Part shown: positions 11,099 through 38,400 of the stretch, piece by piece
Numbering within the stretch: position 1 is the stretch's first letter
Layout of the letters: every line of letters starts with the position of its first letter
Source: Streptomyces sp. RPT161
GTDB taxonomy: Bacteria > Actinomycetota > Actinomycetes > Streptomycetales > Streptomycetaceae
Reading direction: 5' to 3'
NCBI RefSeq assembly: GCF_027533845.1
Contig: NZ_JAPZVN010000002.1
Span: 682,001-746,000, forward strand
DNA length: 64,000 nucleotides
Program-made: the position numbers and the translations under genes
Notes under the pieces: generated by a model
Database searches by the model: none
Told to the model about the DNA's origin: nothing
Seen by the model: only the letters and a program-made list of their open reading frames with translations

Positions 11099-11869
11099 TT
11101 ACAGCCGTCGCGTGGCCAGCGTCAGGCGGTCACGGGCGTCGAACAGGGCGTCCTTGATCATCTGCTCGTGGGCCGGGGTGAGCCGGGCCACCGGTACCGA
11201 GCAGCTGATCGCGTCGCGGGCGGGTGTGCGGTAGGGGATCGCCACGCCGAAGCAGCGCAGACCCAGGGTGTTCTCCTCGCGGTCCACCGCGTAGCCCTGC
11301 TCGCGGATCGTGCGCAGTTCCTCGATCAGCCGCTCGCGGTCGGTGATGGTGTGCTCGGTCAGCGGGTCCAGGGTCTCCGGCAGCATCTTGCGCACCTGCT
11401 CGTCGGCGTACGTGGCGAGCAGCGCCTTGCCCAACGACGTGCTGTGCGCGGGCAGTCGGCGGCCGACGCGGGTGAACGGCCGCAGATAGTGCTGGGACTG
11501 ACGGGTCGCCAGGTACACGACGTTGGTGCCGTCGAGCCGGGCGAGGTGGATGGTCTCGGTGGTCTCGTCGGAGAGTCGGTCGAGGGTGGGGCGGGCGGCG
11601 GCCACCACCTCGTCGCCGTCGATGTAGGAGGTGCCGACCAGCAGCGCGCGCACCCCGATGCCGTAGCGGGTGCCGGTGGCGTCCGTCTCGATCCAGCCGA
11701 GGTCCACCAGGGTGCGCAGCAGCATGTAGAGGCTGGACTTGGGGTACCCGACGGCTTCCTGCACGGCGGCGAGGCTGTGCATACCGGGGCGCCCCGCGAA
11801 GAACTCCAGCAGCTCCACCGTGCGGACCGCCGACTTGACCTGGGACCCGCCGCCCTCGCCCGTAGTCAT
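11099..11869 (-). CDS. IclR-family regulator, probable controller of the semialdehyde dehydrogenase
   Basis: A 256-aa IclR protein. The winged helix-turn-helix lies at about residues 12-75 (VKSAVRTVELLEFFA, SLAAVQEAVGYPKSSLYMLL, LGWIETDATGTRYGIG), followed by the ligand-binding domain (RPTLDRLSDETTETIHLARL, AHSTSLGKALLA, GLRCFGVAIPYR). IclR proteins often control sugar-acid degradation. This one is transcribed away from the alpha-ketoglutaric semialdehyde dehydrogenase gene, with a TGTTC/GAACA inverted repeat between them, so that gene is the most likely target and a sugar-acid intermediate the likely ligand (inference). Confidence 0.93.
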   Translation of the reverse strand: MTTGEGGGSQVKSAVRTVELLEFFAGRPGMHSLAAVQEAVGYPKSSLYMLLRTLVDLGWIETDATGTRYGIGVRALLVGTSYIDGDEVVAAARPTLDRLSDETTETIHLARLDGTNVVYLATRQSQHYLRPFTRVGRRLPAHSTSLGKALLATYADEQVRKMLPETLDPLTEHTITDRERLIEELRTIREQGYAVDREENTLGLRCFGVAIPYRTPARDAISCSVPVARLTPAHEQMIKDALFDARDRLTLATRRL

Positions 11870-15507: not shown

Positions 15508-15981
15508 TCAGTCCTTTCGCTCGTCGTGAGGATCGCGCTGGGGGGTGGCGGCGAGCTCCGGCGAGGCAGACGCATGGGCCAGTAGCGCGGCGGCCCGTTC
15601 AAGCACGGTCCAAAGCTCTTCCGCATGGGCACGGGAGGAGGCCAATGCCAGGCGTCCGGGCTGGTCCACGGCCATGTCGAGGTACGCCTCGATACCGCGT
15701 ATGGCGTGGGCGACGCTGTGCCGAAGCGAGTAGCCACCAGTGGTGGGCGACAGCGCCCGGGGATCACCGATCCGCTCGGCGAGCACGGTAGTCAACTGGT
15801 CGAGGCCAGCCCTGGTGAGGCGTTCCACGAGTGCTTCCCATGAAGTGCGGGCACCGCCACGGGATGAGCGGTGCGGTCCAGGAGGGGCGACGGGTTCAGG
15901 TTCAGCAGCTGCGGCTTCATGATCTGGGACAGCGAACAACCTGTCAACAAATTCACGAATTACAGTTCGCCTATCGTCCAC
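15508..15981 (-). CDS. unknown protein in operon with the STAS gene
   Basis: A 157-aa protein I do not recognise. It is predicted mostly helical, with a low-complexity Ala/Glu/Pro stretch (about residues 20-40) and a helical C-terminal half containing SLRHSVAHAIRGIEAYLDMAVDQPGRLALASSRAHAEELWTVL (shown here only to mark the conserved-looking core). The GTG at 15981 is preferred because GAGG lies 8 nt upstream on its strand; an in-frame ATG at 15999 has no ribosome site. It is co-transcribed with the STAS protein and divergent from a winged-helix regulator, so it may be part of the same regulatory switch. Confidence 0.65.
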   Translation of the reverse strand: MDDRRTVIREFVDRLFAVPDHEAAAAEPEPVAPPGPHRSSRGGARTSWEALVERLTRAGLDQLTTVLAERIGDPRALSPTTGGYSLRHSVAHAIRGIEAYLDMAVDQPGRLALASSRAHAEELWTVLERAAALLAHASASPELAATPQRDPHDERKD

Positions 15982-15994
15982 GCGACATGCCTCT

Positions 15995-16007
15995 ACCATG
16001 GGGTGCC
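15995..16007 (+). promoter_or_regulatory. leaderless promoter of the winged-helix gene
   Basis: TACCAT (15995-16000) lies 7 nt before the ATG at 16008. It overlaps the start region of the divergent STAS operon, so the two transcription units would compete or be co-regulated. Confidence 0.4.
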
Positions 16008-16325
16008 ATGGAAGAGAGGCCCAGCTCACAAGGAACTTGGACGTTCCTGACCAATCACGCACGCGTGCTGGCTCAGATCGCCCGGGACCCCGGCACGCGG
16101 ATCCGCGACATCGCCGCGGCGTGCCTGCTCACCGAACGTGCCGTGCAGAAGATCATCACGGACCTGGAGGACGGCGGGTACCTCACGCACACCCGACGGG
16201 GCCGCACGAACCACTACCGGGTCATCCTGGGCACACGCCTGCGCCATCCCGCCGACGACGGCACCGTCGACGACCTTCTGGCGATCCTCGACCACAAGTC
16301 AGGGCCCGAGTCCGCCGCGGGCTAG
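16008..16325 (+). CDS. small winged-helix DNA-binding protein (ArsR/MarR-like)
   Basis: A 105-aa protein made almost entirely of one winged helix: WTFLTNHARVLAQIARDPGTR, then RDIAAACLLTERAVQKIITDLE and the wing GGYLTHTRRGRTNHYRV. Short proteins of this kind are common in Streptomyces, often in several copies per genome. It is divergent from the STAS operon and probably regulates itself and perhaps that operon. The C-terminal tail (about 25 residues) is too short for a typical effector domain. Confidence 0.85.
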   Translation: MEERPSSQGTWTFLTNHARVLAQIARDPGTRIRDIAAACLLTERAVQKIITDLEDGGYLTHTRRGRTNHYRVILGTRLRHPADDGTVDDLLAILDHKSGPESAAG

Positions 16326-17113: not shown

Positions 17114-18001
17114 TCACCGAACCGGAGTGAAGTCCCGCGCCCCGACGAACGCCGGGCGCGGCGCCGGTGCCGCGAACGGTTCGACCGCCGTGTTCTCCAC
17201 GCTGTTGAAGACGATGAACACGTTGCTGCGCGGGAACGGCGTGATGTTGTCACCGGAACCGTGCATGCAGTTGCAGTCGAACCAGGTCGCCGAGCCGGCC
17301 GGGCCGGTGAACAGCTTGATGCCGTGTCGCCCGGCCAGTTCGGTCAGCGCCTCCTTCGACGGGGTGCCGGCCTCCTGCATCCGCAGCGACCGCTTGTAGT
17401 TGTCCTTCGGCGTCACCCCCGCGCAGCCGACGAACGTACGGTGCGAGCCCGGCATGATCATCAGGCCGCCGTTGGTGTCGTGGTTCTCGGTCAGCGCGAT
17501 CGACACCGACACGGTGCGCATCCGCGGCAGGCCGTCCTCGGCGTGCCACGTCTCGAAGTCCGAGTGCCAGTAGAAGCCGCTCGCGCCGAAGCCCGGCTTG
17601 ACGTTGACCCGGCTCTGGTGGACGTAGACGTCGGAGCCGAGGATCTGCCGGGCGCGGCCGAGCACCCGTGGGTCGCGGACCAGTTCGGCGAACACCTCGC
17701 TGATCTTGTGGACCTCGAAGACCGACCGGATGTCCTGGGACTTCGGCTCTACGATGGCGCGTTCGTCGGCCCGTACCGCCGGGTCGGCGATCAGCCGGTC
17801 CAACTCGGCGCGATATCGGGCCACTTCCTCCGGTGCCAGCAGCCGGTCCACCGTCAGGAAGCCGTCGCGGTCGTAGCCGTGCAGTTCGGACGGCTGGATC
17901 GGGCCCGACGTACCGGGGGTGGCCCACACCACCGGGTCCTGGCGCGGGGTGCTGACCTCGGCGGTGCCGCGGGTCGGGTACAGGTCGGTGATCGTCGTCA
18001 T
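17114..18001 (-). CDS. ectD: ectoine 5-hydroxylase
   Basis: A 295-aa Fe(II)/2-oxoglutarate dioxygenase that hydroxylates ectoine to 5-hydroxyectoine. Iron ligands are visible as HSDFE (His, Asp) and CMHGSGDN (His); the EctD signature runs FYWHSDFETWHAEDG, and LFTGPAGSATWFDCN precedes the last histidine. Length is normal for the family. It is the fourth gene of ectABCD, 3 nt after ectC. Its last 57 bp are duplicated at 14412-14468. Confidence 0.97.
   Translation of the reverse strand: MTTITDLYPTRGTAEVSTPRQDPVVWATPGTSGPIQPSELHGYDRDGFLTVDRLLAPEEVARYRAELDRLIADPAVRADERAIVEPKSQDIRSVFEVHKISEVFAELVRDPRVLGRARQILGSDVYVHQSRVNVKPGFGASGFYWHSDFETWHAEDGLPRMRTVSVSIALTENHDTNGGLMIMPGSHRTFVGCAGVTPKDNYKRSLRMQEAGTPSKEALTELAGRHGIKLFTGPAGSATWFDCNCMHGSGDNITPFPRSNVFIVFNSVENTAVEPFAAPAPRPAFVGARDFTPVR
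17134..17190 (+). repeat. direct repeat copy 2 (inside ectD)
   Basis: The copy of the 57-bp repeat inside the intact ectD gene, encoding its C-terminal residues. See the copy at 14412-14468. Confidence 0.85.
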
Positions 18002-18004
18002 CGT

Positions 18005-18403
18005 TCAGGCCTCCTCCGTCAGCAGCGGGTACACCCCGTTCTCGTCGTGCTCCTCACGGCCGGTGACCGGCGGGTTGAACACGCACAGGCAGCGGAAGTC
18101 GGTCTTGGGCCGCATCGTGTGCTTCTCATGGCCGTTGAGCAGGTACATCGTGCCCGGGGTGATCCAGTGCTTCTCGCCGGTCTCCTCGTCGGTGAGCTCG
18201 GCTTCGCCCTCCACGCAGACCACGGCCTCGATGTGGTTGGCGTACCACATGGACGTCTCGGTCCCTGCGTACATCACGGTCTCGTGCAGGGAGAAGCCGA
18301 CACGCTCCCCGGCCAGGACGATCCGCTTGCTCTCCCAGGTGCCCGACGCTGCCTTCACATGCCGGTCGGTGCCTTCGAGTTCCTTGAACGATCGGACGAT
18401 CAC
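18005..18403 (-). CDS. ectC: L-ectoine synthase
   Basis: A 132-aa cupin that cyclises N-gamma-acetyl-diaminobutyrate to ectoine. Visible motifs include [15 protein letters not shown] at the start, [38 protein letters not shown] and the closing [20 protein letters not shown], all typical of EctC. It starts with GTG and is followed after 3 nt by ectD. Confidence 0.97.
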
Positions 18404-18446: not shown

Positions 18447-19721
18447 TTACGCGGTCTCGCGGACCGCGCGGGCGAGGGTGCGCAGGCCCTCTTCCAACTC
18501 GTCGGGGCTGATGGTCAGCGCGGGCAGCAGCTTGACGACCTCGCTCTCCGGGCCGGAGGTCTCCAGCAGCATTCCGAGCTCGAAGGCGCGGGCGCACACC
18601 GCGGCGGCGCGCTGCTTGTCGGTGAACTCCAGGCCCCAGACCAGGCCGCGGCCCCTGAACTCGACGCCGGAGCGCGGGTGTTCGCGGACGATGTCGCGCA
18701 GCGCGGCCTCGATCTGCTCGCCGCGGGCCAGCGTCTGCTTCTCCATCTGGCCGTCCGCCCAGTAGGTGTCCAGGGCGGCGGTGGCGGTGACGAACGCCGG
18801 GTTGTTGCCACGGAACGTGCCGTTGTGCTCGCCGGGCTCCCACAGGTCCAACTCGGGCTTGAACAGCGTCAGTGACATCGGTAGGCCGTAGCCGCTGATG
18901 GACTTGGACAGGGTGACGATGTCCGGGACGATCCCGGCCTCCTCGAAGGAGAAGAACGGGCCGGTGCGACCGCAGCCCATCTGGATGTCGTCCACGATCA
19001 GCAGCATGTCGCGCCGCTTGCACAGCTCGGCCAGGCCGCGCAGCCACTCGGCGCGGGCCACGTTGATCCCGCCCTCGCCCTGGATGGTCTCCACGATCAC
19101 CGCGGCGGGCTGGTTGAGGCCGGAGCCCTGGTCCTCCAGCAGCCGCTCGAACCACAGGAAGTCCGGGACCCGGCCGTCGAGGTAGTGGTCGAACGGCATC
19201 GGAGTGCCGTGCACCAGCGGGATCCCGGCGCCCGCCCGCTTGAAGGCGTTGCCGGTCACCGCGAGTGAGCCCAGGGACATGCCGTGGAAGGCGTTGGTGA
19301 ACGAGACGATCGCCTCCCGCCCCTTGGCCTTGCGGGCCAGCTTCAGCGCCGCCTCGACGGCGTTGGTGCCGGTGGGACCGGGGAACATCACCTTGTAGTC
19401 GAGGCCCCGCGGGCGCAGCACCACCTCCTGGAAGGTGGTGAGGAACGCGCGTTTGGCCGTGGTGCTCATGTCCAGGCCGTGGGTGATCCCGTCGCGTTCC
19501 AGGTAGTCCAGCAGCGCGCGTTTCAACACCGGGTTGTTATGGCCGTAGTTGAGCGCGCCCGCACCGGAGAAGAAGTCCAGGTAGCTGTGCCCGTCCTCGT
19601 CGTGGATCCGGCTGCCCTGCGCGCGGTCGAACACCGCGGGCCAACCGCGGCAGTAGCTGCGCACCTCGGACTCAAGGGACTCGAAGACGCTGAGTGCGGG
19701 CGGGGTGATGGTCACCGTCAT
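18447..19721 (-). CDS. ectB: L-2,4-diaminobutyrate transaminase
   Basis: A 424-aa class III PLP aminotransferase that makes L-2,4-diaminobutyrate from aspartate semialdehyde for ectoine synthesis. Visible are [20 protein letters not shown] at the N-terminus, [33 protein letters not shown], and the PLP-lysine region [15 protein letters not shown]. The ATG at 19721 is preceded by AAGGAG, which rules out the longer in-frame start. About 100 bp with two repeat elements separate it from ectA. Confidence 0.97.
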
Positions 19722-19730
19722 GCTCCTTAG

Positions 19731-19809
19731 TGGGGGCCTGGGGGCGTTACCCCAGAAGAAAGTCCTCATCGCGCGGCATGGGGCGGGGGCCTGGGGGCGG
19801 CAGACCCAG
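19731..19809 (-). repeat. two dispersed GC hairpin elements between ectA and ectB
   Basis: Two imperfect copies of an element of the form CTGGGGGC-loop-CCCCAGAAG occur in tandem (19738-19760 and 19791-19813). A third, better copy follows the aldolase gene at 42275-42298. In the ectA-ectB gap they could slow or partly stop transcription or protect a processed mRNA end. The AAGGAG ribosome site of ectB lies right next to them. Confidence 0.6.
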
Positions 19810-19820
19810 AAGGAACGCCT

Positions 19821-20363
19821 TCACCGGAAGGCCCCCAAGGGGCCGATCCGGTAGAGCACCTCCGTGCCATGGCCGTCGGGGAACTGACCGCCGTGGAAAA
19901 GCACTTCGCGCTCTATGGGGGCGTCGTGCCGTTCGCCGTAGGAGGTGAACAGCCGGTTGGACGCTTCGTTGTCCGGGGTGATCGTGGTCTCGACGCGGTC
20001 GATGCCGAGGGCGGTGACCCGCTCGGTCAGCCCGTCGAGCATCGTGGCGGCGAGTCCCCGACCGCGGTACGAGTGGTCGACCGCGACCTGCCAGACGACC
20101 AGGGTCTTCGGCCGCTCGGGCCGTACGTAGCCGGTCACGAACCCCACTGGCTCACCGCTGCCGTCCCTGGCCACCACCGAGGTGCGGGCGAAGTCCCGGC
20201 ACCACAGCAGGTAGCTGTACGAGGAGTTGAGGTCCAGCGCCTTGGAGTCACGGGCGATGCGCCAGATCGCGGCGCCGTCGTCGACGGTCGGCGGATCCAA
20301 TCGATACGGGGAATTCGAGGCGTTCACGGCTTCGCATACAAGGTCGTCTTGTGCGGCGGTCAT
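19821..20363 (-). CDS. ectA: L-2,4-diaminobutyrate N-gamma-acetyltransferase
   Basis: A 180-aa GNAT acetyltransferase, first enzyme of the dedicated ectoine route. The acetyl-CoA site is VVWQVAVDHSYRGRGLAATML; other EctA landmarks are YRLDPPTVDDGAAIWRIARD, YSYLLWCRDFARTSVVARD and VETTITPDNEASNRLFTSY. The ATG at 20363 begins MTAAQDDLVCEA; in-frame starts further upstream would read through the promoter region. It is the first gene of ectABCD, which the cell would express under salt or heat stress. Confidence 0.96.
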   Translation of the reverse strand: MTAAQDDLVCEAVNASNSPYRLDPPTVDDGAAIWRIARDSKALDLNSSYSYLLWCRDFARTSVVARDGSGEPVGFVTGYVRPERPKTLVVWQVAVDHSYRGRGLAATMLDGLTERVTALGIDRVETTITPDNEASNRLFTSYGERHDAPIEREVLFHGGQFPDGHGTEVLYRIGPLGAFR

Positions 20364-20484
20364 GCGAATTGAACTTACCGAGATGGAAAGCGAAATGCAT
20401 CGGCGGGCGGGGTTACCTACGGCGTCGGAATGTGTTATCGCGCGCACGCGAACCGGCGTCTGAACCGACCCCGCAGAGTGGGTT

Positions 20485-20508
20485 TTTGCCCGGATATATC
20501 CGGGCAAA
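20485..20508. promoter_or_regulatory. perfect 24-bp palindrome, candidate operator of ectABCD
   Basis: Half-site TTTGCCCGGATA followed by its exact reverse complement, with an AT centre (GATATATC). Perfect symmetry with an AT-rich core is more typical of a dimeric repressor site than of a terminator. No known ectoine regulator gene lies next to it. Confidence 0.6.
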
Positions 20509-20774
20509 TCGGATGCGGTGTGGAGTCGGTCACAACTCAGTAACGCCCTTGGGGTCTGCCCGACTCACGTCATTCGGCGTTAGCGAAATCTTGGTGTTTA
20601 GCCTTGGGAGGGCTGGGCAGAAGAAGACGGGCGAATGCCGTTCCGGAAATTCTCCGGGGAATTAAGGGAAGCATGCCGCAGAAAAGTTTCAGCGTCCAGT
20701 GACGGGTTTACCGGATCCGGGCCGGGGCAGACGCGTGGCGTGACCGTCCCGGTGGAGCCGCCGTACCCGCGCCG

Positions 20775-20787: not shown

Positions 20788-21879
20788 ATGACGGATGCCG
20801 CGGTGTTGCACATCAAGGGGCGGGTGCTGGTCGGGCCCGAGGAGGTTCGCGACGAGCTGTGGGTGGTCGACGGGCGGGTGACGTACGAGCGCCCCGCGCA
20901 CGCCCGTGATGTGGCCACCGTCAGTGGGTGGGTGCTGCCGGGACTGGTGGACGCGCACTGCCATGTGGGCCTTGACGCACACGGCGCGGTGGACGAGGCG
21001 GCCAGCGAGAAGCAGGCGCTGGCCGACCGGGACGCGGGAGCGCTGCTGTTGCGGGACGCGGGCTCCCCAGCCGACACCCGGTGGGTGGACGACAGGGAGG
21101 ACCTGCCGAAGATCATCCGGGCCGGCCGCCACATCGCCCGCACCCGCCGCTACATCCGCAACTACGCCCATGAGATCGAGCCCGGTGACCTGGCCGCCTA
21201 TGTGCGGCGGGAGGCGCGGCGCGGTGACGGCTGGGTGAAGCTGGTGGGCGACTGGATCGATCGCGAGGTCGGCGATCTGACGCCGTGCTGGCCGCGTTGG
21301 GCGATCGACGAGGCGATCGCCGCGGCCCACGAGGAGGGCGCCCGGGTCACCGCGCACTGCTTCTCCGAGGACTCGCTCACCGATCTGGTGGAGGCGGGCA
21401 TCGACTGCGTCGAGCACGCCACCGGGCTGACCGAGGAGACCATCCCGCTGTTCGCGGAGCGCGGTGTGGCGATCGTTCCGACCCTGGTCAACATCGCGAC
21501 GTTCCCGAACCTGGCGGCCGGGGGAGAGGCGAAGTTCCCCAACTGGGCAGCGCATATGCGGCGGTTGCACGCCCGTCGCTACGACACCGTGCGCGCCGCC
21601 CATGACGCCGGGATCCAGATCTTCACCGGTACCGACGCGGGCGGTTCACTGCCGCACGGGCTGGTGGCGGACGAGGTCGCCGAGCTGGTCGCCGCCGGGA
21701 TCCCGGCGGTTGACGCGCTGGCGGCGGCCACCTGGCGGGCCAGGGAGTGGCTCGGACGGCCGCGGTTGGACGAGGGCGCGCCCGCCGACCTGGTGGTGTA
21801 CGAGGCCGATCCGCGCGTCGACGTAAGGGTGTTGGCGGCCCCGCGGCAGGTCGTGCTGCGGGGCCGCGTGGTGGGGTGA
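20788..21879 (+). CDS. amidohydrolase-family metal-dependent hydrolase
   Basis: A 363-aa amidohydrolase. Metal ligands are DAHCHVG (HxH), the lysine region GWVKLVGDW, RVTAHCFSEDSL, DCVEHATGL and the terminal aspartate in IFTGTDAGGSLPHG. The family covers imidazolonepropionase-, prolidase- and cyclic-amide-hydrolysing enzymes; substrate unknown. The ATG at 20788 is supported by the TAGAGT box and by the start of the fold (VLHIKGRVLVGPEE); upstream frame extension lacks homology. It converges with the next gene with only 12 nt between stops. Confidence 0.9.
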   Translation: MTDAAVLHIKGRVLVGPEEVRDELWVVDGRVTYERPAHARDVATVSGWVLPGLVDAHCHVGLDAHGAVDEAASEKQALADRDAGALLLRDAGSPADTRWVDDREDLPKIIRAGRHIARTRRYIRNYAHEIEPGDLAAYVRREARRGDGWVKLVGDWIDREVGDLTPCWPRWAIDEAIAAAHEEGARVTAHCFSEDSLTDLVEAGIDCVEHATGLTEETIPLFAERGVAIVPTLVNIATFPNLAAGGEAKFPNWAAHMRRLHARRYDTVRAAHDAGIQIFTGTDAGGSLPHGLVADEVAELVAAGIPAVDALAAATWRAREWLGRPRLDEGAPADLVVYEADPRVDVRVLAAPRQVVLRGRVVG

Positions 21880-38221: not shown

Positions 38222-38400
38222 CGATGAGAGTCTCCTGGCTCCCGGATCGGCGCGCCCCCTGGCCTTCCAGCCGATCGCTCGGCCGTGACCCTCGGGTGGG
38301 AACGCACTCCCCGGTGACAGTGGCGGGACCGCGCCGGATTCACACCGGCTTCCTCTCCTGTCGCCGTTTGGGCTTGTTGGTGCCGTATGGCACCGGGCAG
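38222..38400 (-). ncRNA. cobalamin riboswitch upstream of cobD
   Basis: On the minus strand the leader contains the B12 box AGCCAGGAGA (38240-38231), the upstream conserved GCCGGTGTGAATCCGGC (about 38349-38333), GCCACTGTCACC, and a GGTGCC-GTAT-GGCACC hairpin (38394-38379). Order and spacing fit the class I cobalamin aptamer. It ends about 110 nt before the cobD ATG. The remaining bases 38109-38221 and 38401-38500 hold no gene. Confidence 0.92.

Follow-up and report, generated by a model that had tools for sequence, protein, structure and literature searches.

The window, that is the whole 64-kb stretch of DNA that was analysed, carries ectABCD on its minus strand. The genes comprise ectA (19821-20363), which encodes a GNAT acetyltransferase, an ectB open reading frame (18447-19769) whose true start may be further in, ectC (18005-18403), and ectD (17114-18001). 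A divergent amidohydrolase gene lies upstream on the plus strand (20788-21879, with the start assumed at 20788), an arrangement relative to ectA that recurs in 19 of 20 ect neighbourhoods. Elsewhere in the window there is a cobalamin riboswitch on the minus strand at 38229-38354 (Rfam RF00174, 72 bits).

Between ectA and the amidohydrolase gene, positions 20485-20508 form a perfect 24-bp dyad, TTTGCCCGGATATATCCGGGCAAA, which spans -145 to -122 when the A of the ectA ATG is counted as 0. As the next base pair outward is unmatched, the dyad is 24 bp and not longer. No other perfect palindrome in the window is as long. Base composition predicts 13 perfect palindromes of 14 bp or more, where 10 are observed, and ~0.03 of 24 bp or more per 64 kb. 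Within the 7.7-Mb genome the sequence occurs once, even with up to three mismatches allowed. The first-pass annotation had described a complete palindrome at exactly these positions, 121 bp before the ectA ATG (A at 20363, minus strand), and had judged a chance origin very unlikely; the gap measured is the same and the expected number bears out the judgement. The AT-rich island in which it placed the site is only mild, with 50% G+C in the 24-mer versus 72% in the window.

At up to three mismatches, TTTGCCCGGATATATCCGGGCAAA is found in 13 of 394 Streptomycetaceae genomes, from 5 of 17 genera, and all 13 matching loci contain ectB. The site of one genome of the same genus as the window (G002) is identical to that of the Streptantibioticus rubrisoli record. 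To compare the upstream regions more broadly, ectA was located by protein search in 333 of the 394 genomes at E <= 0.001, where the weak EctA matches are probably other acetyltransferases. The first 130 listed matches and 11 named loci made up a set of 141 sequences from 139 distinct genomes, two named loci duplicating genomes in the set. A site matrix fitted iteratively within -170 to -86 recovered a related dyad, approximately TTTGYCCGG-TAATTW-CCGGRCAAA, that scores above 3 bits in 136 of the 141 ectA upstream sequences, which answers the check for conservation suggested by the first-pass annotation. The dyad ends at -121 in 79 sequences, at -120 in 19, and at -122 in 12, giving 110 within 1 bp of -121. 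The matrix, which holds 20.9 bits, correlates with its reverse complement (r 0.90). The 11 named loci favour good sites because they were retrieved with a symmetric pattern.

Scores of at least 12 bits are reached by 83% of 150 real sequences, most of which trained the matrix, versus 0.07% of shuffled 85-bp windows. The exception to this self-scoring is a set of nine held-out family genomes, of which six reach 12 bits or more, with positions between -145 and -117 taken as the best place in 260 bp, and the remaining three score low (2.3, 6.0, and 9.3 bits). Across 82 in-register sequences the dyad carries 0.88 bits per position, whereas the 30 bp of spacer after it carry 0.32. Within the whole upstream profile, self-complementarity is highest around the centre of the dyad (r 0.78), and the next centre that does not closely overlap it reaches 0.47. 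The element thus behaves as a conserved ectABCD operator in two respects, in that it keeps its place relative to ectA among relatives and is constrained above the neighbouring non-coding DNA.

The dyad also strongly favours ect loci within the family. The pattern TTTGYCCGGWWWWWWCCGGRCAAA at up to three mismatches occurs in 96 of the 394 genomes, compared with 3 of 394 for its reversed control. Among the 75 places listed, 53 belong to ectA and 10 to other loci, while the remaining 12 fall in genomes without listed ectA coordinates and could not be assigned. A scan of all genomes returned at least 116 matching loci; among the matches listed, 20 loci bear the name Streptomyces or Streptantibioticus, and ectA or ectB is present in 18 of these and in none of 96 loci of other names. 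Of the remaining two, L241 has the dyad 106 bp from the edge of its stretch, with the GATAACACA block and the amidohydrolase gene next to it, and L222, in Streptomyces sp. TRM68416, is not at ect. In three genomes of the window's genus, TTTGYCCGGN6CCGGRCAAA at up to three mismatches matches 10, 8, and 11 places including ect, against 4, 7, and 6 for the reversed control. The best of the non-ect places has two mismatches (G001:C16:93754) and all others have three.

A similar dyad precedes a membrane acyltransferase gene in three Streptomyces (G306, G307, and L222), with acyltransferase-associated dyads at L222 6947-6970, L338 1501-1524, and G306:C1:1129141-1129164. Among 12 of the 44 listed homologues, the site is clear in the two already known and degraded in one (L347, 8.4 bits), and a further homologue (L348) has a 15.7-bit match at another position. 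In the other homologues checked the site is not clearly retained. The non-ect places in G022, G102, G031, G068, G188, G182, and G011 have no gene in common as far as seen, and a further non-ect place lies in G330. Outside the family, 27 genomes have an EctA match, and the nine loci examined among them show no site at a fixed place, the best score being 11.2 bits at -298 from the EctA match. Several contigs of two Bryobacterales MAGs (L146, L151, L172, L173, L179, L219, and L223) contain repeated similar dyads, TTTGTCCGGnnnnnnCCGGACAAA, which may belong to a family of repeats or be a separate operator of those genomes.

The dyad is one of several conserved blocks before ectA, all on the minus strand. 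A GTTAC-N6-GTGAC box of the MtrA/GlnR type lies at 20529-20544 (-181 to -166), recognised by its conservation and fixed spacing and exact at -181 in many genomes. Its second half is overlapped by a Rex-type sequence, TTGTGAC-N4-TCCACA (20519-20535), which is likewise conserved in sequence and spacing. Closer to the gene, block GCGCGATAACACA (20431-20443) is matched at 10 or more of 13 letters in 139 sequences; 120 of these place it, and likewise GATAACACA, at -80. It is followed by block GTAACCCC (20409-20416, -53 to -46) and by conserved GATGCAATTT at -38. The stretch 20372-20443, with the highly conserved GCGCGATAACACA, GTAACCCC, and GATGCAATTT blocks, includes two TAAC cores 22 bp apart, a distance that would suit two further response-regulator contacts. 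In the other direction, a conserved block at 20585-20623 reads CCTAAACGCCAAGATT and CTTCTGCCCG in ect orientation; its distance to the ect module varies among relatives and it is perhaps the promoter of the divergent gene.

The core promoter of ectA appears to abut the start codon. A possible -35 region, GATGCATTTC, is located at 20392-20401 (1.58 bits per position), and a probable -10 hexamer, TAAGTT, at 20372-20377, 8 nt before the ATG, which is immediately preceded by GGTAAATT. The hexamer reads TAAATT in 109 of 141 sequences, and TANNNT is present within -16 to -7 in all 141. A simple sigma-70 scan of the upstream region found no promoter, so that both elements are named from their conservation and position. 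No Shine-Dalgarno-like core is present at -18 to -5 in any of the 141 sequences, which together with the invariant TANNNT suggests that ectA is leaderless. If so, the dyad lies ~133 bp upstream of the transcription start and outside the main mRNA.

The dyad is ~20 bp downstream of the MtrA/GlnR-type box and ~10 bp from the Rex-type site, and these distances are kept. Among the 138 of 150 sequences that combine a good box with a dyad scoring 8 bits or more, the distance from box to dyad amounts to 36 bp for 127 and 37 bp for 6, with 38, 39, 46, 46, and 48 bp for the other 5. The distance to the ATG is mostly fixed as well; in several lineages the box and dyad are jointly shifted by 11, 14-15, or 21-22 bp. 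The constant spacing and the joint shifts indicate two units, a rigid one made up of box and dyad and a separate one for the core promoter. The rigidity of the first speaks for a dyad-binding protein that would cooperate with the protein on the box. The box itself does not need the dyad, as 8 of the 10 sequences (of 150) in which the dyad scores below 8 bits retain the box. Box quality and dyad quality show no association (Fisher p 0.27).

The ect promoter already has several reported regulators. In S. venezuelae, MtrA was found on the ectABCD promoter at all time points, and ectoine production under sucrose requires MtrA, with activation only under osmotic stress (PMC13189361). MtrA is also highly enriched at ectABCD in S. 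coelicolor, where the authors suggested possible repression (PMC5845573), and a review lists GlnR as a repressor of ectABCD (PMC10704036). The binder of the GTTAC-N6-GTGAC box is assigned here from these three reports. Rex of S. avermitilis bound an ectABC probe (PMC5355995), and the Rex site predicted there, TTGTGATCGACTCCACAT at a distance of 155 nt to the start codon, coincides with the TTGTGAC-N4-TCCACA block by both sequence and distance. Transcription of ectA in vitro has been reported with a sigma-B homologue (PMC5402319). ArgR shifts an ect intergenic fragment, and a weak ArgR box (3.8 bits, outside the model of that paper) is tabulated at the GTAACCCC block in S. coelicolor (PMC5839063, Table 1). 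The MarR-family protein SAV4189 of S. avermitilis bound an ectA probe in EMSA (PMC6036246), and ect expression is reported to rise on deletion of HupA or HupS (PMC11472566). As far as the available passages of these papers show, no published consensus of the ect regulators matches the dyad, and a partial survey of the open-access literature contained no published ectA inverted repeat corresponding to this site.

Comparison with the known operators places the dyad apart from each of them. EctR is a MarR-type repressor of methylotrophic Proteobacteria, and ectR beside ect is reported only from Proteobacteria (PMC5924519). Its operator resembles the dyad in being a palindrome before ectA with a presumed dedicated regulator. 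However, the EctR site is AT-rich and consists of two 8-bp half-sites 2 bp apart, with EctR covering a -10 region (PMC5924519), whereas the dyad has 12-bp GC-containing halves with no gap and lies far upstream. The EctR arrangement of half-sites is absent from 20485-20508, and neither of the MarR genes seen near ect accompanies the site. The MtrA/GlnR box shares the promoter with the dyad, 20 bp away and with locked spacing, but is a non-palindromic direct repeat, GTnAC-N6-GTnAC, which is present at 20529-20544 and missing from the dyad. The predicted Rex operator of S. avermitilis ectABC is palindromic and belongs to the same module, but has the form TTGTGA...CACA and is a separate site 10 bp upstream.

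The search for a regulator gene close to ect covered 20 neighbourhoods of 20 kb. The IclR gene of the window (11099-11869) has a counterpart in 8 of them, 4.3-8.3 kb downstream of ectA in seven and 2.8 kb away on the other side in G245. As IclR presence does not track the dyad (8 of 8 dyad-positive versus 5 of 8 dyad-poor genomes), it was rejected as the dyad regulator; by eye, its own intergenic region contains a different palindrome. A MarR-like gene beyond ectD in the window (15831-16325, plus strand, Pfam MarR_2) has no match in any of the 20 ect neighbourhoods of relatives. A second MarR gene (Pfam MarR) is found near ectD in 6 of 20 neighbourhoods by tblastn and in 6 of 18 named ect loci (L285 14439-14957, plus strand; also G245, G304, G309, G238, and G339). 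At E <= 1e-20 the window's genome contains no match to it, and 10 of 18 dyad-positive genomes likewise have none. Orthologues of at least 68% identity are present in 5 of 18 dyad-positive versus 2 of 8 dyad-poor genomes, and any match in 8 of 18 versus 3 of 8. This gene was set aside too, as it does not separate genomes with and without the dyad, and is a candidate local ect regulator in the species that carry it.

Clustering of the open reading frames of the 20 stretches gave 22 recurrent families, each present in four stretches or more. Among these, with 10 representatives scanned against Pfam and some others recognised, no additional regulator appeared. No orthologue of the recurrent IclR and MarR genes explains the site, and the gene for the dyad regulator is probably unlinked to ect in the window's genome. 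The first-pass annotation had proposed the site of an unlinked repressor or activator. Both the conserved operator behaviour and the lack of linkage in the window fit that proposal; it had left out MtrA, GlnR, Rex, the sigma-B type factor, ArgR, and SAV4189, all reported at this promoter, as well as the locked spacing to the MtrA and Rex sites.

The dyad likely serves as operator for a protein that binds as a homodimer or a dimer of dimers and controls ectABCD in Streptomycetaceae, and several other explanations have to be weighed against this. One is that the dyad belongs to a known regulator of the promoter, most plausibly SAV4189. The reported binding to the ectA probe supports this, as does the SAV4189 consensus, TTGCCYKHRSCAA, which begins and ends like the dyad half-sites with TTGCC ... 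GGCAA (PMC6036246), and a MarR gene is near ectD in 6 of the 20 neighbourhoods. However, the SAV4189 operator is 13 bp long with 3 bp between TTGCC and RSCAA, whereas the dyad is 24 bp and by inspection has 12 bp between TTGCC and GGCAA, a 9-bp difference in half-site spacing. The 250 predicted target genes of SAV4189 (PMC6036246) also misfit a site found mainly at ect, and the Rex and ArgR sites and the MtrA/GlnR-type box occupy other blocks of the promoter. A known regulator is hence unlikely as the owner of the dyad. It is less plausible still that ectA has a second promoter, driven by MtrA, whose core is the dyad and whose -10 element is the AT-rich centre. An activator-promoter pair with a variable leader could also produce a fixed spacing to the MtrA-type box together with a variable distance to the ATG. 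Against this, the final T of the central TANNNT is T in only 44%, a promoter would not need conserved symmetric GC arms, and the simple sigma-70 scan gave no promoter, although the scan also misses the one proposed before the ATG. That the dyad serves the divergent amidohydrolase gene instead of ect is the least credible proposal. In 19 of 20 neighbourhoods the gene indeed lies upstream of ectA in divergent orientation, but the spacing of the dyad is tied to the ect-side box, the amidohydrolase start is more than 1 kb further off in several genomes, and in G245 a dyad of 32.5 bits occurs with no amidohydrolase in its 20-kb stretch.

The dyad could also act as RNA, either as a 5'-leader hairpin or as the end of an unannotated transcript, the latter having been named in the first-pass annotation as what would refute an operator. 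A single strand of the dyad forms a 10-bp stem, and the arms are somewhat coupled, with z scores above shuffles of 2.6, 2.5, and 2.4 for 123, 96, and 72 sites. At least 11 of the 12 pairs form in 6 of 127 distinct sites versus 0.43% expected from independent columns, where two of these six well-paired sites came in via a search with a symmetric pattern and a third is the site of the window itself. When the set is thinned to 46 sites, however, the overall coupling falls to z 0.86, with only pair 6-19 still at z 2.6, and non-pairing combinations are frequent, such as C-A at pair 3-22 in 22 of 96. The regional fold is not unusual (z -1.6), Rfam 15 covariance models gave no match at the dyad, and no T-run follows it on either strand. 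Both flanking genes are transcribed away from it, and the combination of stem and T-run on the 3' side of a gene that marks an intrinsic terminator is absent here. The only terminator-like match listed is a different stem at 20470-20482 on the plus strand, with 0.5 expected. A leaderless ectA would further leave the dyad outside the transcript. The lack of a Shine-Dalgarno-like core, the weak covariation, the divergent genes, and the absence of a T-run together point to a protein-binding DNA operator, which makes an RNA element highly improbable and disfavours the 3' hairpin.

In the operator reading, the dyad, the overlapping MtrA/GlnR-type box and the Rex-type site would form one rigid module from -181 to -122 before a probably leaderless ectA. 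A dimeric protein would bind the dyad, where the TTTG elements ~20 bp apart and the CCGG elements ~10 bp apart across the centre would present themselves on the same helix face. The protein may act together with MtrA and not by covering the core promoter. Its role could be that of a gate, a repressor or anti-activator released by osmotic stress, which is slightly favoured over that of a co-activator because MtrA is reported to be bound without osmotic stress yet to activate only with sucrose.

As an operator the dyad would be new but of a familiar type, at a promoter where several regulators are already known. Its interest lies in the product, as Streptomyces uses ectoine as a major protectant against salt and heat and the compound is also sold commercially, and in the missing part it may supply to a well-studied stress promoter. 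If MtrA is always on the promoter and active only under osmotic stress, as reported for S. venezuelae (PMC13189361), another factor should gate it. More tentatively, this missing osmotic gate may be a dedicated and so far undescribed ectoine regulator, shared by most of the family and encoded at an unlinked locus, that docks at a fixed distance from bound MtrA and decides when ectABCD is switched on. Locked beside the MtrA-type box, the dyad provides an exact DNA bait for the gating factor and a single target for mutation.
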